A stretch of DNA of 64,000 nucleotides from Symbiodinium sp. CCMP2592 (Eukaryota; Sar; Dinophyceae; Suessiales; Symbiodiniaceae), in assembly GCA_905221615.1 (NCBI GenBank), contig CAJNDT010000990.1:62001-126000 (forward strand). Direction: 5' to 3'. The notes beneath the pieces were generated by a model that was given only the letters and a program-made list of their open reading frames with translations, had not been told where the DNA came from and made no database searches. A program made the translations under genes and the position numbers. Position 1 is the stretch's first letter. Each line of letters begins with the position of its first letter. This document shows, piece after piece, positions 19,302 to 64,000 of the stretch.

Positions 19302-19364
19302 GGTTTAGGGTTTAGGGTTTGGGTTTAGGGTTTAGGGTTTAGGGTTTAGGGTTTAGGGTTTAGG
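19302..19364 (+). repeat. Interstitial telomere-type array (TTTAGGG)n
   Basis: About nine TTTAGGG units, nearly perfect; the cleanest telomere-like run in the window. Confidence 0.95.
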
Positions 19365-39371: not shown

Positions 39372-39845
39372 AGTAGATTTTCGGGTGGGTTGAATATTCT
39401 GAAGATCTGTAGTGGGCTTGAAACGAGTCTTCACTTGTATTGTCAGGTGTCCCCAAACAAGCAAGTTCAATCCAAACTCTGTAGACCGCGGACGAGAAAC
39501 CGTTCGAAAAGAATGATGCCGAACGAATCAAGGAAAGCGATCGTGATACTTAGAGGAGGTTGATGCATGAGAGACCGAGTCCACAACCAAACATGATGGT
39601 CACAGCAGTACTGGCAACGACAACTTCGACAACGGCAGTACCGAAAACGCACAAAAAAACTATTGTCACGACCCACAAGACACACTCACACACACACACA
39701 AGCCTCAAGCATGAGAACCAGAAAGGAAATTCACAAAAAAACAGCGCCACAGGAGTGGCACAGCACAGGCTAAATGCAGAGCAGGTGCTGCAGGAACTCG
39801 GCCATCCCGTTTGTAAGATGGGTGGGCCATGACCTGGGTTGCAAA

Positions 39846-39928
39846 CACTAAACCCTAAACCCCTAAACCCTAAACCCCTAAACCCTAAACCCTAAATCCT
39901 GAACCCTAAACCCTAAACCCTAAACCCT
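39846..39928 (-). repeat. Telomere-type array (CCCTAAA)n
   Basis: About eleven units with occasional extra C. Confidence 0.9.
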
Positions 39929-42390: not shown

Positions 42391-42567
42391 GGAAAACCTC
42401 GGAATCCGCATGCTCCCTGAACACGATTGCTGCAATGTTGCAGGGTTCAGATACGTTAGGAATGCTTAGAGCTCTCCTTCGAAGAGTTCGTTGCCGTTGA
42501 GGATCTCGTAGACGGACAGAAGCTGATACCTGCATGGCGTCGTCTTCCAAACTTGAACCTCGAAGCC

Positions 42568-42660
42568 CTAAACCCTAAACCCAAACCCTAAATCCTAAAC
42601 CCTAAACCCTAAATCCTAAACCCTAAACCCTAAACCCTAAATCCTAAACCCTAAACCCAG
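42568..42660 (-). repeat. Telomere-type array (CCCTAAA)n
   Basis: About thirteen units, some CCCTAAAT. Confidence 0.9.
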
Positions 42661-43618: not shown

Positions 43619-44389
43619 CAAGAGCTGCATGGCGTGTTCCCGCGGATCTCATGGCATTCCGTCTCACAGAAGCTGCATGCCGGGAACTTACTAAGACTCA
43701 AGGTGAGCCCTGCCTCTGCAAGTTAGGGTTTAGGGTTTTGGATTTAGGCTTTAGGCTTTAGGATATAGGGTTTAGGGCTAAGTTGCTCCGTGAGGCACGG
43801 GTCTTCCTTCATCTGCTGTTGAACCCTGCGCAATGTCTGCATGTCATATCATCAAAGCAATCTGAAGCTTCCATCCCAGCGCTTGAATGCTCAAAGCCTT
43901 TCATAGTTAGGGTTTAGGGTTTAAGGTTTAGGTCAGGGTTGAGGTTAAGGTTCCTTATAATGACACTACAACAACTACAACACATAATGCTGTACCCCAG
44001 AATCCTGTTCTAGTCATTGAGGCCCCTTTAGTGGATTAAGGCCCCTTTAGGAAACCATGCCAAGCCCGCATAATTAGGTATAGTAGCCCTTGCAGAACTC
44101 TCTAAAAGGAGTCGCTGATTACAAGGAGCCCAGTTCGGCCCCCACACAAACCCTGAAACCCGAAACCCCTAAACCCCTAAAACCCCTAAACCCCTGAACC
44201 CCCAGACACCTATAATCCCTAAACCCCTAAATCCTGAACCGTTTCGGCCAGGAAACTCAGCCTGAGTTTTCATTACGTTCTGAGGAGCCGACTTGGCTTC
44301 GCTTGCGTCTTCCAGGGGGTTCGTTCGGAACCAAAGGAGTTCCTCACGGGGGTTCTGTAACTAGGACGACCTGGGGCCTAGGGTTCCTT
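43619..44389. other. Gene-free stretch
   Basis: TTTAGGG fragments at 43,722-43,775 and 43,908-43,935; CCCTAAA/CCCCTAAA at 44,150-44,240. Confidence 0.4.
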
Positions 44390-44514
44390 TACTTGGAAGG
44401 GCAGGGGACTTAGTAAGTAGGTTATAAGTAGGGTTATCATTGGGGTAACTCCATTTAGGGCACTTATAACTCTACTTATAACCTACTTACTAAGTCCCCT
44501 GCCCTTCCAAGTAA
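44390..44514. mobile_element. Foldback element, family C (GGGCAGGGG subtype)
   Basis: TACTTGGAAGGGCAGGGGAC ... CCCCTGCCCTTCCAAGTAAG. Confidence 0.85.
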
Positions 44515-45394: not shown

Positions 45395-45425
45395 TTACCC
45401 TGACCCTGCTGTTTACCTAATTTTA
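45395..45425 (+). repeat. Left terminal inverted repeat of the 14.7-kb element
   Basis: Begins TTACCCTGACCCTGCTGTTT and ends in ACCTAATTTTA. It is identical to the reverse complement of 60,063-60,093. Subterminal TTTAC and GTAAA motifs follow to about 45,490, including TTTACGTAAA. Confidence 0.85.
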
Positions 45426-45855
45426 CACTTTGGCTTGATTTACTGTAAACGAAGGATTTAGTGTAAAATGACCAAATTTACGTAAATTTTCTGGTGAGCT
45501 AAAAACATGACAAAACACATAAAAACATTATGCAAACACAAACATGGAACTCATATTTGCGGCTGCAAACTTAGACACCACATGTAAAGGATTTAAAAAA
45601 ATCACCGGCATGAGTTTGTTTTGCTCTGCAATCGCAGACACCACATGTAAAGGATCCACAGCAGAAGTAAGGACTTTTCCGAAAATTCGCAGGCCCAAAG
45701 CCATAAACTAACCAAAGAGAATCCATGCAGATTGCTTATAAGATCCACACCAGTATATACGACAACTGTGATTCAAAAGCCCAAACAAAAGACCAGGAGC
45801 ACCACATATAGCAGAGAGACACTCTTTTTTTTCGCGACAGAAAAGAAAGAAGCTC
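45426..45855. other. Left subterminal region, non-coding
   Basis: From the left TIR to the stop codon of the transposase-like gene. The first 70 bases carry TTTAC/GTAAA motifs. Two near-identical CACATGTAAAGGAT units lie at about 45,578-45,592 and 45,641-45,655, with matching context (cagacac upstream). It probably also holds the 3' UTR of the transposase-like gene. Confidence 0.5.
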
Positions 45856-48143
45856 TCACGATCGCCCAACTTTGCCCCGCAGAAACAAAAGGTGCCTCTC
45901 TTTGAGGGCAGCCTTTTTGGAAGCATGCCAGTGCTTCACCCCTGCCAAACAACTCTTCCATAGAATCTGCAGGCGATGCATCGTCGTCTCTCCCTTGTAG
46001 CACCAGACCATCGACGGATGAATAAAACTGCTGAGTAGGAGACTATGCAAAACGAAGTGGGTCTTACTTGTGAGATTGAAGAGCTTCTCCCCCGTCCCTT
46101 TGTAGTGGGCTTGCAGGCTGCTGTGGAGCTGTGCCATTTGGCAACCGAGCTTGAAAGCCAGGTTTGCTTGCTCCTCAGGTAAAGCCAAGAAGCCGTACCG
46201 TGGCCCATAAGCTTCCAATATTTCAGCCAGCTGCAGGTTCAACCGCAAAAAGAGCCGGATTTGCTTGTGTTGATAGATACCCTCGTCCATTTGCTCTTCG
46301 AATAGAGCAAGAATTGCACTGTCCAAAGATTGAATATCGGAAGCTCTTCCTCTCATCTTGGGGAATCCTTTTTTTGGTTGTATCATTGTAAGTTTCAGAA
46401 GTCGCTGGCGGAATGTGTATCTGGTTTCGTTGTCTCGCTGGTACTTCTTGATGAAGGAGTCGCAGTATTTCAAATTCGCCAAGATACTCCCACCCAAACA
46501 ATCGTGGACCACGATGCTGAGCACGGAGCCATAAAAAAACTGTATCCACCCCAAAAACATACAATGCATATAGTCCATCGTGATACAAAGTCCCGAAAAG
46601 CCAGGTAAAGAATACAGCTGGCATGATGGATTCCAGTGGGATCTCCAGTTGGTGGTGGTGAGGCACGAGGCTTGCCACGGCGAATTTGCACGATTGTCCA
46701 TCCATGTTAGTGGTCCTTTGAAGGCGGCCCGACAAAGAGCACAAGGTTTGCTGTGATTGCTCCATCGTGGAACCTCCAGCCATTTCGCATAATAATCCAA
46801 GTCGCCAGCCATTTGAACCAGGACACCATAATATCCTCCGCATAGGTCGGTTCCCGCTCGTTCGCCCTCCTTTGTACTGGCCCCATACCTCTGTGCCGTG
46901 TAACAAACATTTTCTTACTTGTGAGACAGGTTCATATATATCTACATATATATATCTACATGTGGTGAGAGGGTTTTTTACGTATACTGTGTGGTGATTT
47001 TTCTCACATCCGGTTCGTGCTGCTTTGGGATTCCACGGGTCCGTGGTTTTGTGGCTTATATATGTTTATACGATATTATATACTGTGTATATATATATAT
47101 ATATATCATCACCATCAAGGAAGCTGTTGGGTTAGGGTTGGATTTGAGAACAGGGCTCTCATACATAGGGTGTGTATGTATATAGTCACATATCTAAAAC
47201 AGGACCCACATCATAAAAAATCAAGAAAGACAAAAAGGCTTACAGCTTATAGGGTTCCCACAGGGTCCTAAAATGTAAGGGTTTCCAGATTTCTGGCACA
47301 TGTGTACATATACAACAACACACCAGGCTGCTTCTTGCCTTGCCAATCCCGAGCAGGCCATTTACCGGTGTAAAGAATGTTGAAAGACCAATACATCACT
47401 TGCCAAAAAGTTTCCATTGTCCCAGCCCCCTCGCCGCCAGCCGGAATAATGAACTTCTCAAAAACGCCCCAAATGTAGAGGTTGCAATCGGCAGCAGATC
47501 GGCCGGCCGCTGTGGCCATCAGCGATACCCATGAAAAAGCCAAAACACTGCGAGCCCATATCTTGCCCACTCCAAAAACAGGAACTTCGTCGCCGTGTAT
47601 GCAAAGGGGAATAGCCCTTTGCATCCAATTAGCTCGCGATTTTACCGCATGATTTGACATGCAAGGGTGTCCATTGAACGATCTCCAAAACCGAGGCAAA
47701 GCCTCCGCATCAGGCAACACAGAAGTAATCCATCCAGTCGTCGTCTTCCAAAGGTGGTGCATAATCTCGTGCGGAAGCAATATCATGGAAGTCGCCGTGC
47801 CTTCGACTTGTCCTGCTAAGGGGATATTAAATTCTGTCGGCATCGGAAGATTGGACTGCTGGGCCAAGTGGTTGTCAATAGAAGATTGCAAATTTTTTCC
47901 ATGCTTCACCTTGCTGAGCCTGTCCAAATCAGGAAGAATTTTCCCGTCCCTTGCATTTCTAATATCGGCAGCCGCTGCAACTGCAATTGCATGAATCATA
48001 GAGGCCGACAGGAGGCCTTGTGCCAAATACGTCATCAGCAAATCGTGCAAAGAACTTGAGGTGGACTTCTCACTCACCGCCTGGCCCAATCTCTGTTGGA
48101 CCCCACCCTTTCGTCGCTTTCGCTCGGGCCCTGCATCCTCCAT
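45856..48143 (-). CDS. Transposase-like DDE protein, two exons, 610 aa
   Basis: Exon 1 is 48,143-47,344 and exon 2 is 46,888-45,856. They join in frame through a 455-bp GC-AG intron that splits a Trp codon. The protein starts MEDAGPERKRRKGG, a basic nuclear-type N-terminus. Candidate catalytic features: H183-G184-D185 in an IPLCIHGDEVP context; GDLDYYAKWL (G295-D296); a C-x2-C knuckle at C316/C319; then D372-x2-H375-x4-G380 followed by GSVL. HGD/GD, zinc-knuckle insertion and DxxH resemble the core of CMC/KDZ-type DDE transposases; the third acidic residue is not assigned. The start was chosen because it opens the basic N-terminus and a TA-rich stretch lies just upstream. The gene is last in a row of four and ends 430 bp from the left TIR. 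I recall related proteins as abundant in dinoflagellate gene sets. Exons: high confidence; transposase role: moderate. Confidence 0.75.
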
Positions 48144-48894
48144 GGTACCTTCTCTCCATATATAAATAAACAGAACAGCACCTTTATGCAAAGTTGGTGT
48201 TTGTTGCCAGCTGAACTTTTGTGCCTTATTTCATACAGTGGTTTGTTCGCTATAGCCATAAAACATTTTATAAGGACGGGACACACATGGTCAGACACAC
48301 CGAGCATTGAGGCTGAGGCTTGTGAGCAAGTTATACATATATGTGTGGGCACCAAATATACTATACAAACAACAACAGAAAGCTTTTGCCCCAACCCCGC
48401 AAAACCCAAACCCCCTAAACCACACGGTCCACTGCCCCTCAATCTGGACGAAACAAATCTTGTGAGGGTTTATATATAAGGTTCAGGATTTAAGGGTTTA
48501 TAGAGGGTTCAGGGTTTGGGGTTACGAAGGTTGTGTTGTGAGCTTCACAGGGTTTTGGAGGTATGGACTTTCATGGTTGATTCAATGCTTGAGGTTCGGA
48601 GGTATAGCTTTACACATGTGTGCACTCACACATGCAAAGCAGGCTACAACAACACCATCGGTGTTATATATACTCTAAAATTGAAGCTGAAAGTCACGAA
48701 GACCAACACCCCAACATGATTCAAAAGGTTATAGTTATACACGTCGTTGCTCACATGTAAAAATCACCAGAAAAGCGCCAAATCTCAAGCTCTCATCATC
48801 GCCGTTGCTTTTTTCTCTCATCGCCAAAACTCAGAATCGCCGTTTGCACCACATAGAGGCGACAGCTCCGGAACTGCACACATTCAAAATCTGT
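48144..48894. other. Intergenic region between genes 3 and 4 of the element
   Basis: Non-coding. It contains a few telomere-like units (48,395-48,420 and 48,485-48,525) and one CTCACATGTAAA copy of the element's internal motif near 48,750. No promoter motif is recognised apart from a TA-rich tract just upstream of the gene at 48,143. Confidence 0.45.
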
Positions 48895-50018
48895 CTAGCA
48901 TCCTTTTTTGGCTCGGACAGTCAACTTGGCTTTCACGGCTGCCATTTGTTCTTCGAGATGAGTTGCTACTCGCCCGGACTCTCTCATGGTCTTGGAATAT
49001 GATGAGACCGTGATCGGCCCGTCCTCATTCTCATCCTCGTACTCGTGCCACGAGAGAAGGTGCTCAAGTCCCTGCTTCGATTTTGTTGCTTGTTGGACGA
49101 TGCTCTTCCTTACAGCTGTGGGGTCTCACACAGGTTTCGGTGTTCGGGCACTGGGTTTACTTGCGAGAGAAAGCACAACACTTTGGTTACATGCGACTGT
49201 TGTTGAAGAGACTACTTTTACGAGTTAAAGTTTGTGCTTTACTTGCGAAGACAAAGGTTGAAGCCTCCATGTATTTACTTACGAGTTAAATTGGTGACTT
49301 TACTTGCGAGGATAAAAAAGTTGAAGCTTTTGGCAAGGTTGTTTCAGGAATACAAAACCAGTCCAAGTCGCACACTCTGGTACATGTCCTTGTCCTGCTT
49401 CTCATCCACGGAAGCAACCAACTTTCTGCCCTCGACAAGGATCTTATTGTAGGCCGCGATCGCCTTTGTAAGCTGCCCATCTGCTGCCTTCCACAGCTTC
49501 TCCGTCATGTTCCTGCTGGCGGCCACGGTACCATCGCAGATTGCGAGCTGCTCTGAGTCATTTGTCAGAGCTCTCTGGGGCTTTGCTTTGCCCTCGCTCT
49601 TCTCCTCAAACAAACCAATCCTCCAATCCTTGGACTGCTTCTCGAAGAACTTGGCCTCGCCATCCTTCGCTTTGGCATCGGAGCCCATGGAAAACTTCTT
49701 CTCCTTCCCTGAAGTGGAGTTGTGCACATCCTCGGACCACATGTAACGATCGGGTCCGTTCTTGGAACGGACAGCGATGATCTCGCCACTCTCGAGTGCG
49801 GCTTCGAACTGCTCATTGCTAAGATTGAATTTCCCCTGAAGCAAGATTTTGCCCAGGGTTTTCTTCTTGTTGGTCGCCTCGGACTTCGTGTAGTTCTCCT
49901 CGCTCCACCCACAGAAGAAAAGACAAGCCGAAGGGGTTTAGGGTTCAAGCTTAAGGGTTTGAGGCTTGAAGGTTTTAGGGTTCAGGGCTTCGTCGTTTGA
50001 GGCTTTGGGGTTTGGGGT

Positions 50019-50055
<37 letters not shown>

Positions 50056-51366
50056 GGTGCACAGGTTCAGGGTTTAAGGTTTGGGGTGCACGAAGGGTTG
50101 TGGTCATCATTATTATACGTATAGTATAGCAATTATATATAATATATATTGTATGGGAATGCATTTATAGAGTGTTTTTAGATATGCATATATGGTATAA
50201 TAAAAATAAATGTAGTAGAGCCCTCTATAAACAGTTAGAACTACAAAACAAAAGCCGGTGGGGTCCAGAGTTCAAGGTGTATGGGGTTGAAGGTTTTAAA
50301 TTTTCTAAAGGTGTAAGGCTTATGCAGGCTTTAGGGTTCATGGCTTCGTAGTTTACATATAAGGTTTAAGGGTTGTGGTGTATTAGGGTTTCAAGGTTTT
50401 GCTCATTGTAAAACTATAGCTATAAGCTGGACCTATATATACTATAGATACTTTATACACTCCCCGACTTCGCCTTCGGCTTCGAAGTGCCTCTCCACTT
50501 AAGGAAGCGAGCACACCTTGAAATCACCCCCGATACCCATCTTTTCGTCGTCACCTGCATGGAGTGGAACATTGGTTTGGCAAAGTTGAGAACCAGGCTG
50601 GTGTCAACACCGGATCGTCGGTCGATAGCATTGTTGATAAGCTCCCGCTGTCTCTGCCGCTTGCCCGTTTTCATCTTCTGGGACTTCTCCCATGCATCTT
50701 CGAGCCATTCTGGCAATGACCCGTCCTTTAGCAGGCTCATGAACTTGTGCTGCTTGCTGCGGTCCATCTTCCCCGAGTCCTTCGCCGGGTCTTCCATGGC
50801 CAGCACCTCGTCGTCTGTGGGTGTCTCCTCCTCTGGCTGCTCTTCGGCGGCATCCTCCACCTCCTCGAATCCATCAGCCCAGTTGTCCTCCAGCTTCCGC
50901 TTCTTGTTGTTGTCATTCTGCTTGGGAGTGTTTTTGCTGCTGCTGCTGCTACTGGGCTTGCTTCCTTTCTCTTGCTCCTTGCCCTTGTTCTCCTTCTTGT
51001 TCTCGTTCTTGTTCTTCTTCTCCTTGGCTGGGGCCTTTGCTTCGGCCTTTGCTTTGCCCTTTGCTTTGGCCTTTGGGGTGCTCTTTGGGTTGGCCTTCGG
51101 AGTGGGCTTTTGATTGGGCTTGCTCTTTGCTGCTGTTGCTTTCGTTGTTCCTTCTGCTGCAGGCTTTTTCAAAATCCCGGTCCCGGGCTCTTTCTTTATC
51201 GTGATCTTCGCCGCCGGCTTCTTCATGGGCACCTCCTGCTCTTCTTCTTCTGCCTGCTCGTCCTGGGGCTCTTCCTCGGCCTTCGTATACATATATATAT
51301 AACACTCTGGTTTTACAAAACACAAAAACCAAAAAGCGCCTCCGGAGCTTGGCTGTCTTCAGCCAT
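48895..51366 (-). CDS. Lys/Glu-rich protein of unknown function, four exons, about 530 aa
   Basis: Proposed exons: 51,366-51,340, 51,280-50,463, 49,902-49,376 and 49,115-48,895; together 1,593 nt, exactly 531 codons. Introns read as GC-AG (59 bp), GA-AG (560 bp) and GT-AG (260 bp); the first two joins are less certain than the last. The protein begins MAEDSQAPE, then has an acidic stretch followed by a long Lys/Pro/Ala/Ser region (roughly residues 25-145). A more globular part follows with SLPEWLEDAWEKSQ, RELINNAIDRRSG and NFAKPMFHSMQ; the third exon gives GEENYTKSEATNKKK and LSNEQFEAALESGEII. The last exon ends in ATHLEEQMAAVKAKL. I recall similar KPMF-containing proteins from dinoflagellate proteomes, without known function. 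The basic tail suggests nucleic-acid binding (inference). It sits between the RRM gene and the transposase-like gene, same strand. Confidence 0.7.
49116..49375 (-). other. Intron 3 of the Lys/Glu-rich gene, with internal motif cluster
   Basis: GT-AG intron. On the plus strand it carries several TTTACTTGCGAG-type motifs (near 49,156, 49,236, 49,274 and 49,300), the inverse orientation of the array at 57,113-57,405. Confidence 0.5.
49960..50450 (-). other. Body of the large AT-rich intron of the Lys/Glu-rich gene
   Basis: Non-coding. It includes a (TA)n run at about 50,018-50,055, a second TA-rich patch near 50,130-50,210, and telomere-like TTTAGGG fragments at both ends. Confidence 0.5.
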
Positions 51367-52344
51367 CGCAGGGAAAACACGAACAGTAAAGATGATATAC
51401 TGTCCTCACAAAAAAGGCACCCCTCGCTGAAGTGCTCACAGCTGCAGATAGAAGTAAACATAATTGTCATCGCAGTGTAAGTTCTCTCTGACATGCAGAC
51501 AACACCGAATGTGTTTCGTCACAGTCATAGTATAGCTTGAATCACACAAGTATATATAATTTTCTCGCCAGCTCTGGTGTAAAGACACATGCAAGCTTCT
51601 GTGTGGGGTCTGGCACACAGGTTTGAGGTTGAAGGGTTTCGGGGTTCTGTATATAAGGTATATAGTTTAGGGTTCAGGGTTTATATGACATCAGTTGTTG
51701 GGTTCTCGGGCTTTTATAGGCAGTCTCCTGGAGTCGGCCCGGCTCATTGTTTTGCTTCACACTTGCAGGCACGATAAAGTATAGAAGTTACTGCTGTGCA
51801 GAAAAACAGCTGCTCTTATATCTAGCTCCGTCTGCAAAAGCAACGAGACAATTTAATTATGTACATGCACTTCTGTACAACGTGCTGGCAAGTCGTAGCT
51901 CACTGGTCTTGCTGCTCAGCTGCTGCTTCGCTCCACCAGACCCAGTACCAGACCCTTGGGGATTATGTATAATATTCAAAAGCCAAATTACTCTCCTAAA
52001 CAAAACCTATACAATAGATCTAATGCAACCAAGTTGCTGTCGTCCATGATGGACACAGGTCCGCCAAGCCCATTTCCACACTCGTTTGGGCGACCGGCTC
52101 CGGCTTCGGCTTCGGCTCCTGTCTTCCTGGAACACGAGAATATAGCTATTCCCTTTCTGCATTCAGAAAAGTGACTATGTGGTTCGTCGGAAAAACAAAA
52201 GAACAACACAGGTCTCCTGTCGTGGCATCTTCGAAGAGAGGCTTTGTTCTGTCTAGTCAGGGAGGGAGAAGGACAGACTTTTTTGGAGCCGAAAAGCTAT
52301 ACAATATACGATTGATCCTCGCAGAGCACCGTATATAGTGTTGG
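51367..52344. other. Intergenic region, left part, between genes 2 and 3
   Basis: About 1 kb with no convincing reading frame. Telomere-like units lie near 51,625-51,685. A codon-like stretch at 52,060-52,130 was examined and not accepted. Confidence 0.4.
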
Positions 52345-52650
52345 ATGTGGGGCGGTGGGTTGGGGGGGGTGGGGGTGGGGGGTGTGGGGGTGGGGGGTGG
52401 GGGGTGGGGGTGGGGGTGGGGGGTGGGGGGTGTGGGGGTGGGGGGTGGGAGATGGGGGGTGGGGGGTGTGAGTGTGGGGGGTGGGGGGTGTGGGGAGTGT
52501 GGTGGGGGGTGGGGGGTGGGTGGGTGGTTGGGTGGGGGGTGGGGGGTGGGTGGGTGGTTGGGGGGTGGGGGGTGGGGGATGGGGGTGGGGGGTGGGGTGG
52601 TGGGTGGGTGGGGGGGAGGTGGGGGCTGGTGGGGTGGGCTGGGGAGTTTG
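52345..52650 (+). repeat. G-rich minisatellite (GGGGTGG type)
   Basis: Some 300 bases made almost only of G and T on the plus strand, in variants of TGGGGGGTGGGGGTG. The tract is strongly strand-asymmetric and rich in G runs of 3-6, so it could form G-quadruplexes. It directly abuts the long hairpin at 52,665-52,922. Confidence 0.85.
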
Positions 52651-52664
52651 TCAATGGATTTTAA

Positions 52665-52922
52665 GCAGATTTTACAAAAAAATCAACAGGTTTTCCAAAA
52701 AATCTCGATGCAGTTTCGATGCAGTTTGTATGCAGTTTCGATGCTGTTTCGATGCGGTTTTAAAACTACATACAAACTGCATCGCGAAATGCTGTAAAAG
52801 CTATGCAGTTTGTATGTAGTTTTAAAACCGCATCGAAACAGCATCGAAACTGCATATAAACTGCATCGAAACTGCATCGAGATTTTTTGGAAAACCTCTT
52901 GATTTTTTTGTAAAATCTGCTG
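52665..52922. repeat. Near-perfect long inverted repeat (arms about 118-120 bp, loop 20 bp)
   Basis: Left arm 52,665-52,782 and right arm 52,803-52,922 are almost exact reverse complements with only a few mismatches or indels. Each arm itself contains a short tandem unit, GATGCAGTTTCGATGCAGTT-like, with period about 12-14. It lies between genes 2 and 3 of the element and matches no other foldback family in the window. Confidence 0.85.
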
Positions 52923-53872
52923 AAATTTTTGTAAAATCTATGGAAAATTTGGGGGAGATTGTTGCAAAACCTGCCCACCGGTGCCTTTCCGGTGTGTTGT
53001 TCGAGTCTCGCATGTAAGGTCTAAGCCGCATCTCATCGGATCCCCACAAGTGGTTTCCCAGCTTCAAGCGCTACGCTTCGTGTGTGGGGACCGGCACACT
53101 GTGTGTCTAAACCCGAAACCCTAAACCCCTAAACCCCGAGACCCCTGAGCCCCTAAGCCCTCTCTCTATATATAGATGCATGAATACAGGTTCTGCAATC
53201 TACATGTTCGGTTTGGGGATTCAGGGCTTCATGTGTGGTGTATGCAGTATCTTCATAAATGGTTTAGGGTTCGGGCCGGGCTGTTTTTTGTCCTATCGTG
53301 TGACTTGATAGGCCCTTCAAGCAACCCAGGCATGTTCACATGTGTTCTCTATACACTCTATAGACATGTGCACGTGTGTATGTAGCCACCACCACAATCT
53401 CTGCGACTACAACTCTTTCCAATCGCCCGCTTCACTTGCTTGTCGGAGTCTCGCACAGCTTCGCAATTATCCGGATGTGCAGACGACCTTCTGAGGATCC
53501 TCGAGGTTTTGTTGCCTGGGCACATATAATGTAGTGTGGTGTAAGTTCGACTATGTATATACATATATGTATATATAGATATATGTATAAAGAAACATAT
53601 ACATATACATATGCACACATACGTGCTTATTTGTAGACTATGCATCTACAATTTTATACTACATCCATGGGGTCGCTGCACATTGTGCTTAATTGTGAGA
53701 AAAATGAGTGGCTCGGCCTGTCTCATCGTCTCTCGTGCAGCACTGTGCTGTTGCCATCGCCGTTACTGTTGTGTAAAGCTTTATCCCTCTAGACTATATG
53801 CTATAGACACACAAACAGCACAGGGGTTTAAGGGTTTAGGGTTTTAAGGGTTTATAGGGCACTGCATTATAT
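52923..53872. other. Intergenic region downstream of the RRM gene
   Basis: No coding stretch recognised. It contains one CTCGCATGTAAG motif (about 53,007), telomere-like CCCTAAACCC at 53,108-53,140, and TA-rich simple sequence at 53,550-53,610 (ATATATGTATA type). Confidence 0.4.
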
Positions 53873-56500
53873 TCAACGGCGGTAGTAACGACGATGGTAT
53901 CGGCCGCGACTGTCGCCTCTGTACCTGCGGTAGCTACGGCTGTCACTCCTGTGCCGACGACCGTAGCTACGGCTGCGACCATGGTAGCTCCTTCGCCTTT
54001 GGCTCCGGTAGCTACGAGCACGACTCCTACTGGCCCGCCTAGAGTAGCTACGAGCCCGCCTAGAGTAGCTACGAGCCCGCCCCGAGCTACGAGCCCGCCC
54101 CGAGCTACGAGCCCGCCCCGAGCTCCGAGCCCTGTTCTCTTCAACATCTTCACCTTCACCCTCGGAAGTCGGGCTGGGCTCCTTTGGGGGTGGGGTCGGC
54201 TCCTTTTTTGCCTTCTTGGCTTTGGGCTCTTTTTTCTTTTTCTTCTTCTTCTTCTTCTCTTTCTCTTCTTCATCTTCATCTACACTGCTGGGCGGCTCAT
54301 TGGCTTGCTCAGCTTCGGCGATCTGCCGCTTCAGCCGCGGGTCCACGGGCGGCTCCACGGCGGCCGGGGCCACTTTCCTCGCAGACGGCTTCGGCTTGGC
54401 GATCGGCGGCTCCGGTGGGAAGCCAGTGCCAAACTCTTCCTCGGTTTTGTGTTGTCTATATATCGAAGAAACACACACTCTTCTTCTTCGCAAGTAAAAA
54501 ATACACACAGACTCGGGCAGAAATTAGGGTTGACAAAAAAGTCTACACTCCTAAACATAAGGCTGTGGGCTCATAGAACACTTTATTTTTGAGAGAAACC
54601 CTAAAAACCCTAAACCCTAAACCGGCTCTATTGGTTTGGTGCCGGTTTATAAAGCGGCTTTTTTGAGGTTGCTGCTATCGCAGAAAAAGGCTCTGGAATT
54701 GGTCCCGTGTAAGCGTCGCCAGAGTGAAGAAGAGCCCAGTCATATTGCTCTTGGGCCTGTGGGGATAGAGCTTGGAGTTGGGAGGATTCACTGGATATAG
54801 CTTTTGGTTTCAAAAACCACAAAGTTTGGGTGGGAATCGTTGTCTGGGTTTAGGGTTAGGGTTTAGGTTTTAGGGGTTTAGGGTTCAAGGTTTAGGGTTG
54901 AAGGTTCTGGAAAAGTAAGGTTTTTATAGGGCCACAGCCAACCGAGCAGCCGTCATCTCATTCCAGGGCTTAACGTCGACGACGGGGGCTTTCTCGGCCA
55001 CAGCTTCCTTTCACTATATATATAGTATATATAAGCAACCGAAGCAACCGTTTGCTGTGTATAGGTTTGTGGAGTTCCGATTTAGGGCCTTCTTTTACTT
55101 GCAGGGTGATGGCTTAAATGATTCGGCCCGGGTACTGCACCGTCATCCACCACCGAGTTTGGTCCAGCCGGCTCCAGCGGCAGCTGCTTGTCGTCCTTTT
55201 TTGTGGGAGCTCTACTTCATTGTGTGGCTCTGGAGTTTGTTCTTCTTCTCACAAGTAAGGGTACACACACCCACAGGCCTCGGTCTTGGTGTTCGAATCG
55301 AAGGCTCCTTCTGCAAGCGGGGCAGCAGCATCCTCCTGGGGCTGGTGTTGTCGTCGGAATATGAAACTATGAATCTTTTAGGGCGGGTCGTTTGGGGTTC
55401 TCACATGATGCCATATAGCATTCTTAGATTTGGCCCCCCTAGCTGCCCTATAGCTCTTTGTACACATGTTGATTATATATACATATATATAAAAACACAT
55501 GCAGATATGTGTAACAAAACATGTTGTTGAACTATGCAATGCAAGATTCTTTGGGTCGTGGACCACCATGTACCCAGAGCTCCCAGGCTTGCGGCTTCAC
55601 CGTCTCCAAACCGTAAAGTTGCTCAGGTGGCACCTTTGGGTGTGGTGGTGCAAGGTGTTGCGGCGGTGGGTACGGGGGCTGGGTCGGCATCGCTTTGGCT
55701 TTTGGTGGGAGTGCTGGTTCTGGGACATTGGGCTCTGGTGGGCTTTGGGATGGCGGTGGTGCCTGGCCCAGTGGAGGGGGGGTGGGCGGAGGGCCTTTCC
55801 AAGGCGGCTGTTCTGGTGGTGGTGCCCACTTGCCCCACGACTCGTCTTCCTTCGAAGCTTTCGAAGGGGGCGGCTTCGCCAGCTCTGCCACCAGGTACTT
55901 GTTCGTCGCCATTTTCCCATGCCATTGCCCGTCGAGCGAAGCCCGGGCAAGCTGAGCGGCATCTGGCGAGTCCTTTGGTTTAGGGTTTGGGGGTTAGGGG
56001 TTTGGGGTTTATAGGGTTTAGGGTTTAGGGTTTATGTAGGGGTCGCAAGTAATTTTTCTCAAAACCAAGTTGCGAACTCTAAGAAGATCGAGCAGTGATC
56101 AGGCTTGCTCTGCTTCTTCTCCCAGTAACGCTCCCGCACCACTTGTATGTTCCGGCAATCCAGCACCCCAAGCTCCTCGATCGCCGCCCTGATCGCCTCG
56201 GCTCTCTCTCATGTAACTACATATATGTATGCCTGTCTATATGTGTACCAACCTCACCCTTTGTATATATGTGTAGATATAAGCATATATAATTAGACAC
56301 AAAAGAAAAGTAATGAGTGTCAGATTGTGGCCAATAGACGTGTATTGAGTTTATCTATATCTACATATTGTGTACATATAAAGTATATATGTTAAACCCT
56401 AAACCCTAAACCCAAAGCTACTTTTCTTTCGAGTGGCCCACTTCGTCGCACTGTACGTGACATTCTTCACGTAGACACGGTAGCAGTCGACAGTAGCCAT
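53873..56500 (-). CDS. RRM-type RNA-binding protein with Arg/Ser-rich tail, seven exons, about 501 aa
   Basis: Proposed exons: 56,500-56,422; 56,207-56,061; 55,962-55,543; 55,209-55,103; 55,007-54,936; 54,756-54,643; 54,439-53,873 (1,506 nt, 502 codons). Introns are GT-AG, GA-AG, GC-AG, GC-AG, GT-AG and GC-AG; the fourth has the strong donor GCAAGTAAAA, while the ends of exons 2, 3 and 5 are the least certain. Residues 6 to about 105 fit one RRM: RNP2-like VYVKNV at 9-14, a helix AEAIRAAIEELG, RNP1-like HCSIFLEF at 64-71, then AAQLARASLDGQWHGK and YLVAELAK as the last helix and strand. A Pro-rich linker follows (KWAPPPEQPPWKGPP). The tail has an acidic then poly-Lys stretch and RARSSGRARSSGRARS repeats, ending RGRYHRRYYRR. 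This is the architecture of SR-type splicing factors. Its place inside a transposon is unusual: captured host gene, or an element gene that aids its own RNA processing (both inference). Confidence 0.78.
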
Positions 56501-57112
56501 GGCCGCGAAGCAAAACTTGCTATATGTGTTAGAACACCCAAAGTGAACAGCCTTTATTCTTTGTGGATAAAAATGTGCCTAGAGCCTAGCCCCGGCGCCG
56601 AAAGCCTGACACCCGAAACTCGGTAATGGCTTTGGGTTGTATGCTTTAAAAGTCCAGAGCATCTATGCGAAGCTATCTACAATCCAAACCTTCTACAAAT
56701 ACTGTGAGGATAAGCCGCATCGGCACATGGTGGTGACATCGTGTCGAACACATCGTGTGTAGGAGATACTACGTCGCAAAACTAGAGTCTCTCCTGCTGT
56801 AAAGGAAACAGCGACCACGGCCACAAGTTTCGGCTCCAACATCATCTCGCAAAAAAGCCTCGATAAACCTCTTCAGCCGGCATTCTCTGCACTCAAGCAA
56901 TTCCAACTCGAAAGTGTTAGACATTGGAGAATGTTTTTTTGGGGGCTCACAAGGAATCCGGGCTGTCGGTTTGCGGTTTAAGTTTGGGGAGTCGGGTTTG
57001 GGGTTTCGGGTTTTGGGGTTTATATAGGGTTTATGGGTTTAAAATTAGTTTTGGGTTTTAGGGCTTAGTGAGGGTTGAGGGTTTTTGTGAAATACTGCTT
57101 TAAAGGCAAGAC
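56501..57112. other. Intergenic region upstream of the RRM gene
   Basis: No reading frame accepted. It includes telomere-like and GGTTT-rich sequence at 56,970-57,085. The start region of the RRM gene follows without a recognisable core promoter. Confidence 0.4.
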
Positions 57113-57405
57113 ACACTCGCAGGTAGATCTCGCAAGTAACACAAAGCTCCCCATCGCATGTAAAGCTGCACAAGGAAAATCTCGCAAGTAACAAAAAGCT
57201 CCCCATCGCATGTAAAGGTGCACACAAGGAAAATCTCGCAAGTAATATACAAAGCTCCCCATCGCATGTAAAGGTGCACACAAGGAAAATCTCGCAAGTA
57301 ATATACAAAGCTCCTCACATCGCATGTAAAAGGAAACACTCGCACAGGTAAAAAGCAGAACTCATCGCAAGTACATATACAAAAATCACCGTCGCAAGTA
57401 AACCT
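57113..57405 (+). repeat. Tandem array built from CTCGCAAGTAA and TCGCATGTAAA motifs
   Basis: Four to five units of roughly 52-58 bp. Each pairs CTCGCAAGTAA with AAGCTCCCCATCGCATGTAA and a GCACAAGGAAAAT spacer; the last units are degenerate. Single copies of the same motif occur throughout the element (for example 53,007, 54,488, 55,248, 56,043, 59,545-59,660) and I did not find it in the left flank. Possible roles: transposase binding sites, or intergenic RNA-processing signals. Confidence 0.8.
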
Positions 57406-57844
57406 GCTTTGAGGCTTTAGGCTATTGGTGGTTTCGGGGTTACAAAGGCTTATATATACAGTATATGATAGGGATCAAATACATATATCACACAGAACAG
57501 GAAGCACTCAACCTCACACACACACACAAATGCAAGAAACAGTTTTTCTCGCAGTCATTGCCCCTCTGCTGCCGGAAGGTTCACCCTTTTTGTGCTTCTC
57601 ACTAAAAGGGCCAAAGATGCATTATGCTAAATGGCATTGTGGCAGATGTAGTGCTCTACATGTAAACGAAAGACATATAGAAACACACCGTTACTAGCAC
57701 CCATGGGTTTTCTCAGATTTGTGGGAAAACAAACCACGTTTATATACAACATATATATGCTTGAAACTCAGATTGTTATATAGTCTACAAAGTTCAGAAA
57801 ACCCAGGGTGCACATCACATCCCGCCCTGAACACATTTTGGTTT
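57406..57844. other. Intergenic region downstream of the first element gene
   Basis: No gene seen. It has telomere-like fragments, a short TA-rich stretch near 57,450, a (CA)n-like run near 57,515 and one ACATGTAAACG motif at about 57,657. It probably includes the 3' UTR of the gene ending at 57,845. Confidence 0.4.
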
Positions 57845-59331
57845 TCAAACCCCCAGCGACTTCATGACGTCCTTTCGCAGCTTGTAGAGCTCCAAGAGCG
57901 GGATGCCCTGCTCGACGTAGGGAATCATCTTCTCGATCACCTCATGATGCTTCGGACAGCAAATGGAAATGATGCTCCTCAGCTTGCCGCCGTTATCGTA
58001 GTTGCGGATGTAGGATTTCTCAGAGTAGAACTCTACCTTGCAAGATCCGTACTTTTCGGCGGACAGCCATTTGTTAGACGGCGAAGTCGCCGCCGCCGGC
58101 TTCGGCTGCGCCGCCAGCTTCGCCACCTTCGTCTTCGCCGCCGACTTCGCCTTCGCTGTGGCTTTGGGCTTGGGGCTCTTCTCTTTCGGCTTGCCGGTGG
58201 CTTTGGGCTTCGAAGCACCCTTCTTTTTTGCCACAGCCACAGACACCGGCGGCATGAAAGCCATGGCATTTTTGAGGATGTCCAAGTCGCACTCATCCGT
58301 GGAAGAGATCACTTCCACATCCTTGGCCGGCTCAGCCCCGGCACCAGTCTTGATCTTTGCCTTTCCTGCCTTTTTGTTATTTGCCTTTGTGGCCTTCTTC
58401 TTCAGGGTGCCCTTCTTCATAACGATCTTCTTCGGCTTGCTGCTCTTATGGATGTGCACAAACTTCTCCGCAAACTTCTGCGGCTCGCTGCTCTTCAAGG
58501 TGTCCGGAAACTTGGTCGGGCTGCTGTTCTTAAAGATTTCCGGCAACTCCGGGAACTCAGCATCCTGCAAAGGAGTAGGCTTCTCGTCACACCGAAAGGG
58601 AACAGGCTTCTCATCCTCCTTCACGGGAAAAAGGGCCGTGCTGGGGGAATCAAGAGGCTTCGGGGCAAACTCCTGCACCTGCACCCTTTCCAGGCAAAGG
58701 TCAAGCTTCCTGATTGTATGTTTGCACAGACTTAGATAAAAAAGTTTGCAACACTTTTCTTTCTTCCGTCACACGAATTATATATATACAGCGAAAAAAC
58801 ACGAAAGACATATGTGCAGACACGGCACACTTGATCCTCGTGCGACAGGGACCTGTAGACTTTCCGCTTGAAGCTCTCCTTCTGCTTCATCGCACGGAGG
58901 TGGCTAAGAAGAAGACGGATGGCGGTGTCCATCTTGTCCACAAGGTCCTCTGCCTTGTAGTCTTTGTGGCCTGCGAGCTGCAGGTTCTTTTGCTCGTGAA
59001 GGATCCAAAAGCTTCGGGTAACCCGCTGCGACAACAACTTCGTGTTCGGGGCGAGGCGAAGAAGGTCAAACAGCAGCCCAGCTGTCTTTGCCAACCACGG
59101 ACCGTGGGCGGCAGTGTGCCAAGTGTAGCTTATTGGCCCTCCCGGAGGGGGGCACAGTAAAGGCCACAGGTCCTTCGTCTTCTTGAACTCGAGAAAGCCC
59201 AACACCACCTTCGCCAGCTCCGTTGCTGTAATAAGCGGCTCGGCAACCACTCGGTCCTTGGCATTTTTGCCCGTTGCAGCGGAAGCGCCCTCCGCCAGCT
59301 TGACCGAAGCTGCAGCTGATAAGGAAGCCAT
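57845..59331 (-). CDS. Basic protein of unknown function, two exons, 455 aa
   Basis: Exon 1 is 59,331-58,829 and exon 2 is 58,709-57,845, joined in phase by a 119-bp GT-AG intron (donor GTGCCG, acceptor AATCAG). The start MASLSAAASVKLAEG is the first Met of the open exon. Residues about 30-170 look globular and helical (ELAKVVLGFLEFKK, GPWLAKTAGLLFDLLRL, AIRLLLSHLRAMKQKESFKRK). The middle, about 230-370, is low complexity, with many Lys, Ala and Pro (KPKATGKPKEKSPKPKATAK), histone-H1-like in composition. The C-terminus has a compact segment with KVEFYSEKSYIRNYDNGGK and HHEVIEKMIPYVEQG. I recall similar N- and C-terminal segments in dinoflagellate hypothetical proteins but know no function. 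The basic middle suggests DNA or RNA binding. It is the first gene of the row, starting about 730 bp inside the right TIR. Confidence 0.75.
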
Positions 59332-59501
59332 GCTCGCAAGACTGTATATACTGTGTATGTATAGGATTTATGATTTCTCAAAAAAATGGAATGCATTTGT
59401 CTCTGTCTCCATCCAGCCTCGCACTTACATCTGGGTCTCGTCTGGACCAAACACACAGCTGCAACGTCCGAAAATTTTTCTCACTCTCGGATCTCAGAAA
59501 A

Positions 59502-59536
<35 letters not shown>

Positions 59537-60062
59537 TAGATCTCTCGCATGTAACCTACAAGAGTCTCGCACAGGTAAAGGTGGACTCCTCGCAGGTATA
59601 AACTATATTGTGATGACTCTCGCAAATGTACATGTACCGATTTCTCGCATGTAAAAAGCACACATCGCAAGCAATCCGCCGGCTCGACCCAGCACAGAAT
59701 CAAACCGAGCTGCGCTTTCAACATGGAAAACCATGGCTTAACAAGTATGCTTGCAACACAATTCTCATAATTTTATCTTCACACCTGACCATGCCGCACT
59801 GTACAGTCGCAGGAAAATCTCATGCAATCAACAAGCAGAACCATGATAAAAGAAACAAAACCAACCAAAATTAGCTTGCATTTCACTTCTTCAAATTCGG
59901 GAATGTGTAACCTAAAAACATGTATTTTGCAGTGTAAAAAATTTACATTGCAGTGTAAATTTTTTACTATACAAAGTAAATTAATTTACACTTTTTTTTA
60001 CGTAAATTTTTTCGTAAATTTGAAGTGTAAACCAAGCTTTGTTTAGTAAATTGCTCGCCACC
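59332..60062. other. Right subterminal region upstream of the first element gene
   Basis: Non-coding. It contains a (TA)n run at 59,503-59,534 and a cluster of CTCGCATGTAA / CTCGCAGGTA / CTCGCAAATGTA motifs at 59,544-59,660. From about 59,930 GTAAA/TTTAC motifs crowd towards the TIR. This is where a promoter for the whole gene row would be expected; none is recognised. Confidence 0.5.
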
Positions 60063-60093
60063 TAAAATTAGGTAAACAGCAGGGTCAGGGTAA
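60063..60093 (-). repeat. Right terminal inverted repeat of the 14.7-kb element
   Basis: Perfect 31-base inverted copy of 45,395-45,425. The inward 130 bases (59,930-60,062) are packed with GTAAA/TTTAC motifs, again with TTTACGTAAA, matching the layout of the left end. Confidence 0.85.
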
Positions 60094-60890: not shown

Positions 60891-60944
60891 ATTGTTCTTC
60901 TTACTGTGATTGGCAGCGCCGGATCCGGAAGCTTGACTTAGGTT

Positions 60945-63900
60945 CAAGCTTCAGACGGTTGCTGCTTGTCAGCCATGGACGCTCTGGACAGCGTACGCGC
61001 ACGTTGGTTTAGCAGCTCTCCACGAAGTGCGGAGGTGGCTGCACTCGTGCAGGACTTTGCAAGTTTACTGCTGGCGGCCCCTGTAAACCCGCAGAATCTG
61101 TTCCAGATTGCGCGAGGTTGTGTGGCCCGTTTGCAGGGTTTAGGCTTGTTTGTTGCGGAGCTACGTGGTTTTCTTAAGCACACCGTCAACACCGCGAGCA
61201 AGTTGCCTGGTAAGCGCCAGACAGTGGCATCACCATATGTAGGTGGGCTGGAAGCAAAGCGACAGCGTCTTGACGACCCTCTTGCTTGCCCAACAAAGCC
61301 TTTACAGGTGGGTAGCTTGAATCCCGGGCGCACTGGATTGCAAACAGTTGCAACGAATGAGATCCTGTGGTGGAGGCTGCAGCACATTATGGAACACCTT
61401 ATTGCTAAAGACATAGCAATTTGCTTCTTGCCCAGTGCCAGATGGCCTGAGGGCGCCCCAATGCCAGAGCAATCGCGTTTTGAACTCTTAGGAATCGGGT
61501 CTGCTAGCTGGAGTTCCATAGGAGTGCTGATAAGAACTGATGCCTTGCACGTGGTGAGTGTCCTTGAAGATTTTCTGACAGAGCGAACGATTTGGCTTGG
61601 AGTCTCTGCGACTGGAAGCACCGAGTTTGATGCAATCATAGGGGGGTTCTATGCCTCACCGGGAGGCGATGAAGGCACATGGGCGCTTGCATTGCAGCAA
61701 TTTCAGCAGTTACAACTTGAACACAGTCAGGCGCGATGTTACTTGATGGGAGATGGTAATTCGCATTTCAGCCACATTGTAGACCATGAACTGGGTTGTC
61801 ACTGTTCCCTTTGCAAGCAATCACCAGCTGATCGCAGAATTGAATCTGCTGTGCGCATTGCTGGGCTAGAACCACTTAATGGACCTGAGCCCACCCATGA
61901 TTCAGGCAGCACGATTGATGTCGTTTTGGGTTTGCCAGGTTCGCCGCGTGCAGTTACTTTTGACGATGACATCGGTGGTTCTGATCATAAGCTCATCTGC
62001 CTGGACATTATGTGTTTCTTCTCGCCAGTAGGTGAGCCCAACCTTGCAATTGTGCATTGGGCGCACCCTGATAAGTGGTCGCAGGCACTTACAGAAATTG
62101 AGCCTATGCTGTCGCGCCTTGCTGATTTGGTTTACCAAGTAGACCTTGAAGTCCAAGAGGCGCCTTCTATGCCAAGCAAGCGTAAACGCTCATTGCTGGA
62201 AGCCTGCGCCTGGTGCCGTGAGGTACTTTACCTGGCAGTCGGACACTTCAGCTCGGCAGTTGCTGTTAAGTTCCCTAAGCCTTTCCCCCCCCCTGCCGGT
62301 CCCACCCGTAGTTCTGCTGATTGCAAAGAGGACCATGCGAGTATGCTGCTGCGTGAACAAACTGCAAACTTGCAGAGATTCGCCCAGCTTGTGTCAAATG
62401 ACCCGTCTCAGGCACAAAGTTTCTTGTCAGGCTTCTTCCGCCGGTCCAAGTTGTTTCGAATTGCTTTGCAAGACCCGTTGACACAAGTGCAAGCGTCATC
62501 GCAGCAACGTGCTGAGATCATTAGCCGTGACTTGTTGAGTCGAAGCAATGATTCCTCGTTCGATTACACCCCTGCCCGAAGTTTGTTAGAAGAATCCGTC
62601 AAGGAAATCAGGCGGCAGCAAGCTCCTGCATCGGGCGTGGTTGTTCAAAATTTCTGGGTACAACCACCGCTGCACACCACTGCAGACCGAACAGAGCCCT
62701 ACAGTATGGTTGAATTAGAAACCTCTTTGCAAAAAGTAGTCAAATCGAAAAAGTCAGTGCATTGTCCCTTGGCTGCGATTAAGGCCGAATGCTCTGCAGG
62801 ACGAGAACTATCTCTCACCCTGTGCAATTTGGGCAGGACGTGCGCGATGTCCCCAAAATGCTGGGGTCTTCGCCACGTCTCTCCCATCCGTAAGGCAGGT
62901 CCTTCTACCGTCGATAAGGTCAAAAATCTGAGGCCAATCAGTCGAGCCTCTGACCTTTCCTCCCTGCAAGACTCGCTGTGGATGGGACGATGTAAACCGT
63001 TCCTTGATGATTACACAGGCCACATGCAGTTTGGCGGCAAGTTTGACGCAGTAGCCGTTGTCGTAACGCTGGTGCTGCATGCCCAGCTTCGGCAGTACCA
63101 AGGACTCTTGACATACTTGTTGTTTGCGGACCTTAAGTATGCTTTTGACGTAGCAGACTGGAATCTAATGTTGCTCAGCTGCTTTTCGGCGGGGGTAGTA
63201 GGGCAAGAGTGGTTGCTTTTGGACGACTTTTTCCAACAAGACCGTGCTGCTGTCGTCATTAGTGGATTTTTGTCTACGATCCTGAAGGGTGCTGCAGGTA
63301 TCCCACAAGGAAGACGATTCTCAATGCACGCTTTCATGTCGTCAATGCATGTCTTGAGACAAGTAATGGATGCAGTGGCTGCCACATCACGTACAGTTTT
63401 GCCTGACTTCGCTAGGGCAGCAATGGAAGGTTGTTGGACTAGATTCATCCCAGCCCCTCCGCCTGAGGCGCCTCCCTGTTCGGTGGATCCGATGCAGTGT
63501 GCAACTGCCATTAAGCATTTCCTTAACCGTGGTGAAGTTAGTTCTGCCCGTAGTTTAGCGGTTCATGCCCTGGACAGCATGGAGTCTTTTCATGACAGGG
63601 TGCTTTGCATGGAGCTTTTGGGGGTTGAGTCGGTTGGGCCGTTGTTTTTTGTAGATGACGTCTCTGCACCTTATCCAGATGCGCAATCCGTGGAAGCAGT
63701 CTTGAACGAAGGCTTAGGAAAGTATGCACGGTTAGCCAAAGCAGCTTTCAACTTTGGTCCGTCCAAAACAGCCACCATGGCATGCTACGATGCCCCGCCG
63801 GCCGAAGGGCATGTGCCTGTGTATAAGCTTCTTGGAATTGAAATTGACCCTTGGTTCTCTTTTGCTACGCGGTTGGACAAGGTTTGTATCCTAGGACGAA

Positions 63901-64000
63901 CTGCCTTTGAAGAATTTTTCCATATGGCGGAGTCCACTGGCCTCTCCATCCCAGTGGAAGCATTAGAAGTGCCGCGTAGAGTCGTAGAGTCGAGCCTGCA
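60945..64000 (+). mobile_element. LINE-type retrotransposon, right-truncated by the window
   Basis: Defined only by the ORF2 frame at 60,975 onward. The 5' boundary is unknown; it may lie in or beyond the repeat block at 60,430-60,890. Confidence 0.75.
60975..64000 (+). CDS. Non-LTR (LINE-type) retrotransposon ORF2: APE-like endonuclease plus reverse transcriptase, 3' end beyond the window
   Basis: The frame is open from ATG 60,975 (in-frame stop at 60,939-60,941) to the window edge, 1,008 codons, intron-free. Residues about 110-340 form an endonuclease/exonuclease/phosphatase domain: GDGN at 259-262, TIDV at 313-316 and SDH at 336-338. Where APE-type enzymes usually have a catalytic Gln-Glu, this copy reads ICFLPSARW (about 149-157), so that Glu seems to be missing. 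The reverse transcriptase spans about 650-960: LRPIS, motif A FADLKYAFD (D719), motif B GIPQGRRFS (775-783), motif C FVDD (892-895), and FNFGPSK as motif D. Role: target nicking and target-primed reverse transcription of the element's RNA. ORF1, the 5' UTR and the 3' end are not seen. The unbroken frame suggests a recent copy. Confidence 0.93.
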   Translation, partial: MDALDSVRARWFSSSPRSAEVAALVQDFASLLLAAPVNPQNLFQIARGCVARLQGLGLFVAELRGFLKHTVNTASKLPGKRQTVASPYVGGLEAKRQRLDDPLACPTKPLQVGSLNPGRTGLQTVATNEILWWRLQHIMEHLIAKDIAICFLPSARWPEGAPMPEQSRFELLGIGSASWSSIGVLIRTDALHVVSVLEDFLTERTIWLGVSATGSTEFDAIIGGFYASPGGDEGTWALALQQFQQLQLEHSQARCYLMGDGNSHFSHIVDHELGCHCSLCKQSPADRRIESAVRIAGLEPLNGPEPTHDSGSTIDVVLGLPGSPRAVTFDDDIGGSDHKLICLDIMCFFSPVGEPNLAIVHWAHPDKWSQALTEIEPMLSRLADLVYQVDLEVQEAPSMPSKRKRSLLEACAWCREVLYLAVGHFSSAVAVKFPKPFPPPAGPTRSSADCKEDHASMLLREQTANLQRFAQLVSNDPSQAQSFLSGFFRRSKLFRIALQDPLTQVQASSQQRAEIISRDLLSRSNDSSFDYTPARSLLEESVKEIRRQQAPASGVVVQNFWVQPPLHTTADRTEPYSMVELETSLQKVVKSKKSVHCPLAAIKAECSAGRELSLTLCNLGRTCAMSPKCWGLRHVSPIRKAGPSTVDKVKNLRPISRASDLSSLQDSLWMGRCKPFLDDYTGHMQFGGKFDAVAVVVTLVLHAQLRQYQGLLTYLLFADLKYAFDVADWNLMLLSCFSAGVVGQEWLLLDDFFQQDRAAVVISGFLSTILKGAAGIPQGRRFSMHAFMSSMHVLRQVMDAVAATSRTVLPDFARAAMEGCWTRFIPAPPPEAPPCSVDPMQCATAIKHFLNRGEVSSARSLAVHALDSMESFHDRVLCMELLGVESVGPLFFVDDVSAPYPDAQSVEAVLNEGLGKYARLAKAAFNFGPSKTATMACYDAPPAEGHVPVYKLLGIEIDPWFSFATRLDKVCILGRTAFEEFFHMAESTGLSIPVEALEVPRRVVESSL

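Follow-up and report, generated by a model that had tools for sequence, protein, structure and literature searches.

The window analyzed here, a 64,000-nucleotide stretch of a contig from Symbiodinium sp. CCMP2592 (CAJNDT010000990.1, positions 62,001 to 126,000), contains at positions 45398-60090 an element of 14,693 bp that is bounded by inverted ends and carries a row of four genes, G1 to G4, on the minus strand. The exon models were built from open frames and splice-site inference on DNA alone; plus-strand frames of up to 345 amino acids are also present, mostly opposite minus-strand exons, and are taken as antisense shadow. A preliminary description of this DNA had proposed a 14.7-kb transposon with one co-oriented gene row ending in a transposase-like gene, and both proposals hold: the transposon reading is borne out by end pairs, target-site duplications, and empty sites, and G4 is the last of the four genes. 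We conclude that the element is very likely a DNA transposon of the cut-and-paste kind that has been active recently, is probably autonomous, and belongs to a peridinin dinoflagellate; its mobility, its ends, a 2-bp duplication, a target preference, and recent amplification are demonstrated below. The peridinin-chlorophyll protein family (PF02429) has 143 matches in the assembly and 0 in 14 control genomes, which identifies the host as a peridinin dinoflagellate. The features of the element are as follows.

45398-60090, minus strand (gene row): whole transposon, boundaries from flank divergence and 2-bp duplications
45396-45397: target-site duplication, left, TA
45398-45425, plus strand: left terminal inverted repeat (TIR), 28 bp, CCCTGACCCTGCTGTTTACCTAATTTTA, from end comparison among copies
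45477-45486: subterminal palindrome TTTACGTAAA, left, from its occurrence count in the element
45856-48143, minus strand: G4, two exons (48143-47322, 46890-45856), 618 amino acids, from model and motif alignment
48895-51366, minus strand: G3, about four modelled exons (51366-51340, 51280-50555, 49901-49359, 49104-48895), Lys-rich N terminus; one GC donor assumed, exon 2-3 junction approximate
53873-56500, minus strand: G2, several small modelled exons; middle exons approximate, one GC donor assumed
56500-56422, 56201-56074, and 55972-55574, minus strand: RRM-like N-terminal region of G2 in three exons, followed by a Pro-rich middle
54454-53873, minus strand: modelled exon with the arginine/serine (RS) tail of G2
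57845-59331, minus strand: G1, two exons (59331-58853, 58709-57845) with a GT-AG intron, 447 amino acids, Lys-rich middle, from open frames and model
59997-60006: subterminal palindrome TTTACGTAAA, right, amid several TTTAC/GTAAA motifs, from its occurrence count
60063-60090, minus strand: right TIR, 28 bp, from end comparison among copies
60091-60092: target-site duplication, right, TA

Termini, copies, and target sites

Positions 45395-45425 match the reverse complement of positions 60063-60093 at 31 of 31 bases; the next best TIR-like sites within the window have 12 (plus strand) and 11 (minus strand) mismatches. The preliminary description had read this match as perfect 31-bp TIRs beginning with TTACCC. 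While the match itself stands, its reading as a 31-bp TIR is ruled out by copy comparison: copies start at CCCTG, preceded by a variable dinucleotide, so that the true TIR is 28 bp long and the longer match is made up of this TIR, the TA duplication, and one chance base. The element therefore starts with CCCTGACCC..., and the outer TTA/TAA is target DNA outside it. As had been noted, the termini (CCCTG..CAGGG, i.e., CCC..GGG) are not CACTA, and the palindrome TTTACGTAAA lies at both ends, with exactly two occurrences in the element.

We searched the 1.098-Gb assembly (5,383 contigs) of which the window is a part; all genome match counts are lower bounds. The left end gave 172 candidates, of which the best 40 were scored and are 98-100% identical, and the right end gave 139, of which the best 40 were scored and are all 100% identical. 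Between these two lists of 40, 15 contigs including the window's own carry a left and a right end in correct orientation 14.66-14.86 kb apart, an inverted pairing at fixed spacing that is far beyond chance; the end pairs in C96 and C2713 are spaced 24-26 kb instead. Ten whole copies measure 14,655-14,716 bp, are 98.6-99.7% identical to the window copy from end to end, and all hold the same gene row, just as the preliminary description had anticipated for end pairs at 10-20 kb. Exon 2 of G4 (344 amino acids) is identical over its full length, in an open frame, at 81 of 117 scored places (out of 822 candidates); at 8 of these 117, a stop codon interrupts the frame. When 20 partner ends were checked at their predicted position, 10 were standard, 5 had a variant left TIR, and 5 were absent. 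The variant left TIR (CCCTGAGTCTG...) is common to these five copies (L094-L098), in which the right TIR is unchanged. At 706513-732703 of C3079 (L002, L073, L085, L086), two oppositely oriented left ends are separated by 26 kb, and both places where a right end was expected hold internal sequence of the element, i.e., a rearranged pair of copies.

The target-site duplication was determined from 28 two-ended copies: a main set of 20 (including the window), C3034, a further set of 5, C2561, and C1811. Identical dinucleotides flank 25 of them (20/20 in the main set, 4/5 in the further set, plus C3034), namely TA in 15, CA in 3, TG and TT in 2 each, and TC, GA, and AA in 1 each; all fit TN or NA, and the window's own site reads TA, CCC..GGG, TA. 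Given that flanks are shared by C3034/C3493 and by C535/C5209, the independent count is 23/26. All nine independent non-TA copies of the main set match, for which base composition gives a probability of ~3e-11, and shifted-position controls match in only 1-3 of 19. Thus, the duplication has a fixed length, as the preliminary description had allowed for, yet not the 8 bp that it named. An 8- to 9-bp duplication, for which the window flanks (TGGAACCCT/GGGAGCCCT) match only partly by eye, is refuted by copy comparison, which also rules out TA-only targeting.

Empty sites were sought genome-wide by joining the flanks with a single copy of the duplication, and the best 40 of 1,121 candidates were scored. 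Among these, empty sites at full length were found for 5 of 16 joined sites, with best places 99-100% identical: eight for C1153 (five at 100%), seven for C1635 (100%), one for C1066 (100%), two for C1757 (99%), and many places in tandem for C5209 (best 100%). Empty sites, which had been suggested as a check in related strains, are present within the element's own genome, in repeated DNA.

The predicted transposase and its companion genes

Read by eye and by regular expression rather than from a structure, the motifs of G4 are D1 in CIHGD, D2 in AGDLDYY, C(2)C in PCALC, DYMH, H(3)H in THFVLH, and E in WCYKGE. A search with a bait modelled on G4-like proteins of dinoflagellates yielded 979 candidates. 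Of the 144 that were scored, 88 lie in other families and are 40-54% identical to the bait, and the 56 of the element's own family are 38% identical to it. We aligned nine of the 88 relatives, which are 31-35% identical to G4 exon 2, with this exon. In all 10 rows, D2 and C(2)C are 19-20 residues apart and D-x-x-H is present; the last H of H(3)H is 19 residues from E in all eight rows that reach E, the frames of L100 and L102 ending earlier. D2 and E are separated by 266-274 residues, a span that includes C(2)C and H(3)H. One relative (L103) is intronless over 622 amino acids and has LCLHGDGVPV as its D1 motif, versus LCIHGDEVPV in G4. A C(2)C and an H(3-4)H motif located between D2 and E have been published as the mark of the CMCT (CACTA/EnSpm-Mirage-Chapaev-Transib) clade (PMC12730594). 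We infer that G4 is a DDE transposase of CMCT type, with an RNase H fold into which a zinc-binding C(2)C...H(3)H segment is inserted. Matches of G4 exon 2 to designed dTor repeats in PDB (E down to 3.8e-6) were rejected as an artefact that sums weak stretches of a designed helical repeat.

A G3-like bait was scored at 150 of 346 places, and 106 of these 150 rows were used for pairing. At 72 of the 88 other-family G4-like places, a G3-like match lies 2.6-5.0 kb upstream on the same strand; of the rest, none has a same-strand G3 downstream, 1 has a match on the other strand only, and 15 have none within 9 kb. G3 and G4 look like the shared core of a diverse transposase group. Three copies of one other family (L109-L111) end at the same base, at most 0.6 kb downstream of the G4 match, with a terminus that reads CCTCTAAGATCAGG inwards, only that end being seen. 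The preliminary description had counted the same genes without flanking TIRs as a refutation. G3- and G4-like genes do occur elsewhere, but in other families, with other sequence, and in at least one case with a sharp border; this is what a group of related transposons would show, and it does not count as a refutation. L109-L111 also have subterminal AAATAG/CTATTT repeats, and the bases beyond their end are TT, AG, and TC. In another family (L108), a Lys-rich frame within the 3 kb upstream of G3 resembles the G3 N terminus by eye; in this stretch, homology to G1 or G2 is at chance level only.

The N-terminal region of G2 scores against RRM_1 with an E value of 0.012 and 15.9 bits, below the 20.7-bit cut-off (in a model one residue longer than the final one), and its best PDB match is an RRM (E 0.093). 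The RS tail comprises 86 amino acids with 65% R+S and 20 RS/SR dipeptides, and its best 50-amino-acid stretch has 16 such dipeptides versus 9 in the next best frame of the window. SR proteins are defined by an N-terminal RRM and by an RS domain of at least 50 amino acids rich in RS/SR dipeptides; the tail of G2 matches the latter description, and G2 resembles an SR protein. By hand count, the third-exon piece of G2 has at least 123 places among the matches listed; G2 was seen only in the window's transposon family, other families not having been searched for G2 as such. The modelled G2 exons show length changes in C3493 and C3034.

G1 is present in 10/10 whole copies and is the gene that varies most between them, with ~17 amino acid differences by eye between the window and C3669. 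Twelve variants place the window in one group with C593, C3057, and C533, and since they are confined to 59200-58560, the stretch 58560-59200 (G1 and its intron) is mosaic among copies, the remaining element being nearly identical. The spliced G1 protein has no Pfam match, and a search with a G1 bait, which proved uninformative, gave no matches. Elsewhere in the transposon, a ~300-bp GGGGGT-type repeat (52347-52644) lies next to a foldback whose inverted arms are long (52688-52897); in the comparison of copies, gap columns are most numerous in the bin 52500-53000.

Affinities and competing explanations

Several points weigh against the reading of the element as a recently active, probably autonomous transposon. 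All splice sites were inferred from the DNA sequence, and the roles proposed below for G1 to G3 are likewise our inference. TA copies are over-represented, since the query itself carried TA, and three of the 28 copies have unequal dinucleotides (C3335 GA/TA, C2561 TG/TA, and C1811 CA/TA). C2561 has the left flank of C5369 and the right flank of C2680, and C1811 has the left flank of C1757; because these flanks belong to different insertion sites, both copies (L063/L026 and L074/L033) suggest chimeric contigs or recombination between copies. The mismatch in C3335 is not accounted for in this way. The five absent partner ends (two in C3079, and one each in C4921, C2336, and C5105) count in the same direction, and the empty sites, lying in repeated DNA, are paralogous pre-insertion sequences rather than proven alleles. 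Moreover, none of the Pfam matches of G4 reaches its cut-off, the best being ATP13 with an E value of 0.097; there is no NCBIfam match, and the G4 profile finds no PDB sequence, so that motifs are what supports a CMCT kinship; the CA..TG termini are lacking. G4 is broken in four of the ten whole copies: its length is altered in C1720, C593, and C3034, and stops interrupt its frame in C3493 and C3034. Finally, the ratio of nonsynonymous to synonymous substitutions (dN/dS) between copies, calculated from few changes each, is 0.85 for G1, 0.94 for G4, 0.46 and 0.15 for pieces of G2, and 1.71, 0.78, and 0.85 for pieces of G3. Most pieces are therefore near or above 1, and these values give no evidence of selection on function.

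Among the alternatives, it is unlikely that the element is a plain CACTA/EnSpm family, i.e., an ordinary new member of this known superfamily. The CMCT signature and the short duplication would agree with it, and the subterminal TTTAC/GTAAA motifs and accessory genes are reminiscent of En/Spm, which like the element combines a TIR with subterminal repeats and a second protein. However, the termini are CCC..GGG rather than CAC..GTG, the duplications are 2 bp rather than 3, the element has four genes in 14.7 kb, and no CMCT profile, Transposase_21 included, is among the Pfam matches of the 10 aligned members at E<=10, as far as the HMMER filters allow. CACTA/EnSpm (CMC) transposases resemble G4 in being of the DDE type and in having C(2)C and H(3-4)H in the interval from D2 to E (PMC12730594).

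As to the CMCT clade as a whole, the 2 bp seen in 25/28 copies lies within its 2-5 bp range of duplications, whereas its termini are 5'-CA..TG-3' in most cases and those of the element are CCCTG..CAGGG. In Transib/RAG1 the motifs follow one another as in G4 (D2, C(2)C, H(3-4)H, E), and the RAG1 spacings D708-C727 and H942-E962 nearly equal the 20 and 19 residues of G4, to which the TNP2 spacing has also been likened; Transib duplications, however, are 5 bp, and the G4 profile has no PDB match. Maverick/Polinton elements are alike in their ~15 kb and several genes and differ in their 6-bp duplications; no polymerase, capsid, or integrase is among the Pfam matches of nine scanned element frames. 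Zisupton/KDZ elements are likewise eukaryotic transposons able to carry extra genes, but duplications are 8 bp in Zisupton and 7 bp in Kyakuja, against 2 bp here (PMC12730594). The same source describes the fungal CMCT lineages Plavaka and ESTA, which share short duplications (2 bp in PlavakaA, 2 or 3 bp in PlavakaB, TA in ESTA) and the CMCT motif set with the element (PMC12730594). In contrast, Plavaka termini are TGT..ACA or CATCA..TGATG rather than CCC..GGG, and the genes reported to accompany Plavaka/ESTA in fungi are TET/JBP genes, none being of the G3 or RRM-RS type.

Alternatively, the element might be mobile with a transposase supplied in trans by another family, its four genes being passengers or defective. 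The dN/dS values near 1 of most pieces, the frameshifts and stops of G4 in 4/10 whole copies, and the in-frame stops at 8/117 scored places would be compatible with this. Yet the 344-amino-acid exon remains identical and open at 81/117 places, G4 lies inside 10/10 whole copies, and G3-G4 pairs recur in other multi-copy families, one with a sharp border downstream of G4, and we consider trans supply quite improbable. The chances are slimmer still for a Tc1/mariner- or PIF/Harbinger-type element with a TA (or TTA) duplication and a DDE transposase of those superfamilies. TA does flank the window copy and all 10 whole copies, which were, however, chosen by matches that include the query's TA. Other copies have TG, TT, TC, GA, CA, or AA, unlike the TA-only target of Tc1/mariner, and the 2-bp duplication differs from the 3-bp TWA of PIF/Harbinger. 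A compact DD34-41E core is the range for transposases of both types, whereas the 266-274 residues from D2 to E in G4 enclose C(2)C and H(3)H; the Pfam search gave nothing above cut-off. That the element is instead a segmentally duplicated stretch or an amplified cluster of genes, its inverted ends being coincidental, can practically be dismissed: flanks are shared by C3034/C3493, C1720/C96, and C5209/C535, but most compared copies have unrelated flanks, exact breakpoints, and 2-bp duplications, 5/16 joined sites have precise empty sites, and for copies with duplications and empty sites this explanation is refuted.

Proposed gene roles and surroundings of the insertion

If the element is a cut-and-paste transposon as we conclude, G4 would bind the TIRs, excise the element, and join its ends to target cuts staggered by 2 bp. 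G3 is probably a partner in transposition, e.g., a DNA- or complex-binding subunit, given that its place upstream of the transposase recurs in other families; TnpA of En/Spm is a functional model for it, without a demonstrated kinship. G1 would be a second candidate for an end-binding protein, and G2, with its RRM-like region and RS tail, is a candidate RNA-binding or splicing factor for the element's own intron-containing transcripts. It is tempting to speculate further, though we regard this as doubtful, that the element represents a new superfamily-level DDE lineage expanded in the dinoflagellate and organized as rows of several genes, the transposase being preceded by a partner of the G3 type, and that this family has captured an SR-type RRM-RS protein through which the element controls how its own transcripts are spliced. 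If so, this would be a DNA transposon carrying its own splicing regulator. The element offers a case in which to test what use a transposon has for an RS-domain protein.

In a study of Cladocopium goreaui, transposon genes aligned with their unidirectional gene block were reported to be expressed, and block-disrupting ones had no expression evidence (PMC9412976). A single-strand gene row would suit such a genome. According to the same study, repeats make up 36.5% of bases in C. goreaui, known types only 17.3%, and novel dinoflagellate repeats remain unclassified for want of identified dinoflagellate repeats (PMC9412976). A complete element with its ends, target rule, empty sites, and genes, together with a two-gene core, is a handle for classifying them, and, being natural and active in the recent past, the element might be developed into a genetic tool for dinoflagellates. 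In keeping with the earlier remark that such transposons are little described in dinoflagellates, our searches of open-access papers turned up no description of it; Repbase and subscription papers lay outside this search, and a prior entry there is possible.

Searches of Rfam, IMG/VR, and GTDB and a search for spliced leaders in the window returned nothing useful. In the right flank of the insertion (60942-64000, plus strand), an open frame of >1,019 amino acids looks by eye like an endonuclease and reverse transcriptase of the non-LTR (long terminal repeat) type, with the motifs SDHKLI and FVDDV; its only Pfam match is at chance level. The window also contains short foldback repeats that resemble miniature inverted-repeat transposable elements, share the motif CTTAGTAAGTAGGTTATAAGTAG, and match one another perfectly in inverted orientation over up to 85 bp. 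Their approximate positions are as follows.

6829-6920
18743-18857
24241-24373
34455-34569
38427-38540
44389-44514

Telomere-like TTTAGGG/CCCTAAA arrays are scattered through the window (19302-19364, 39843-39928, 42566-42658, and others) and also occur in the non-coding parts of the transposon.

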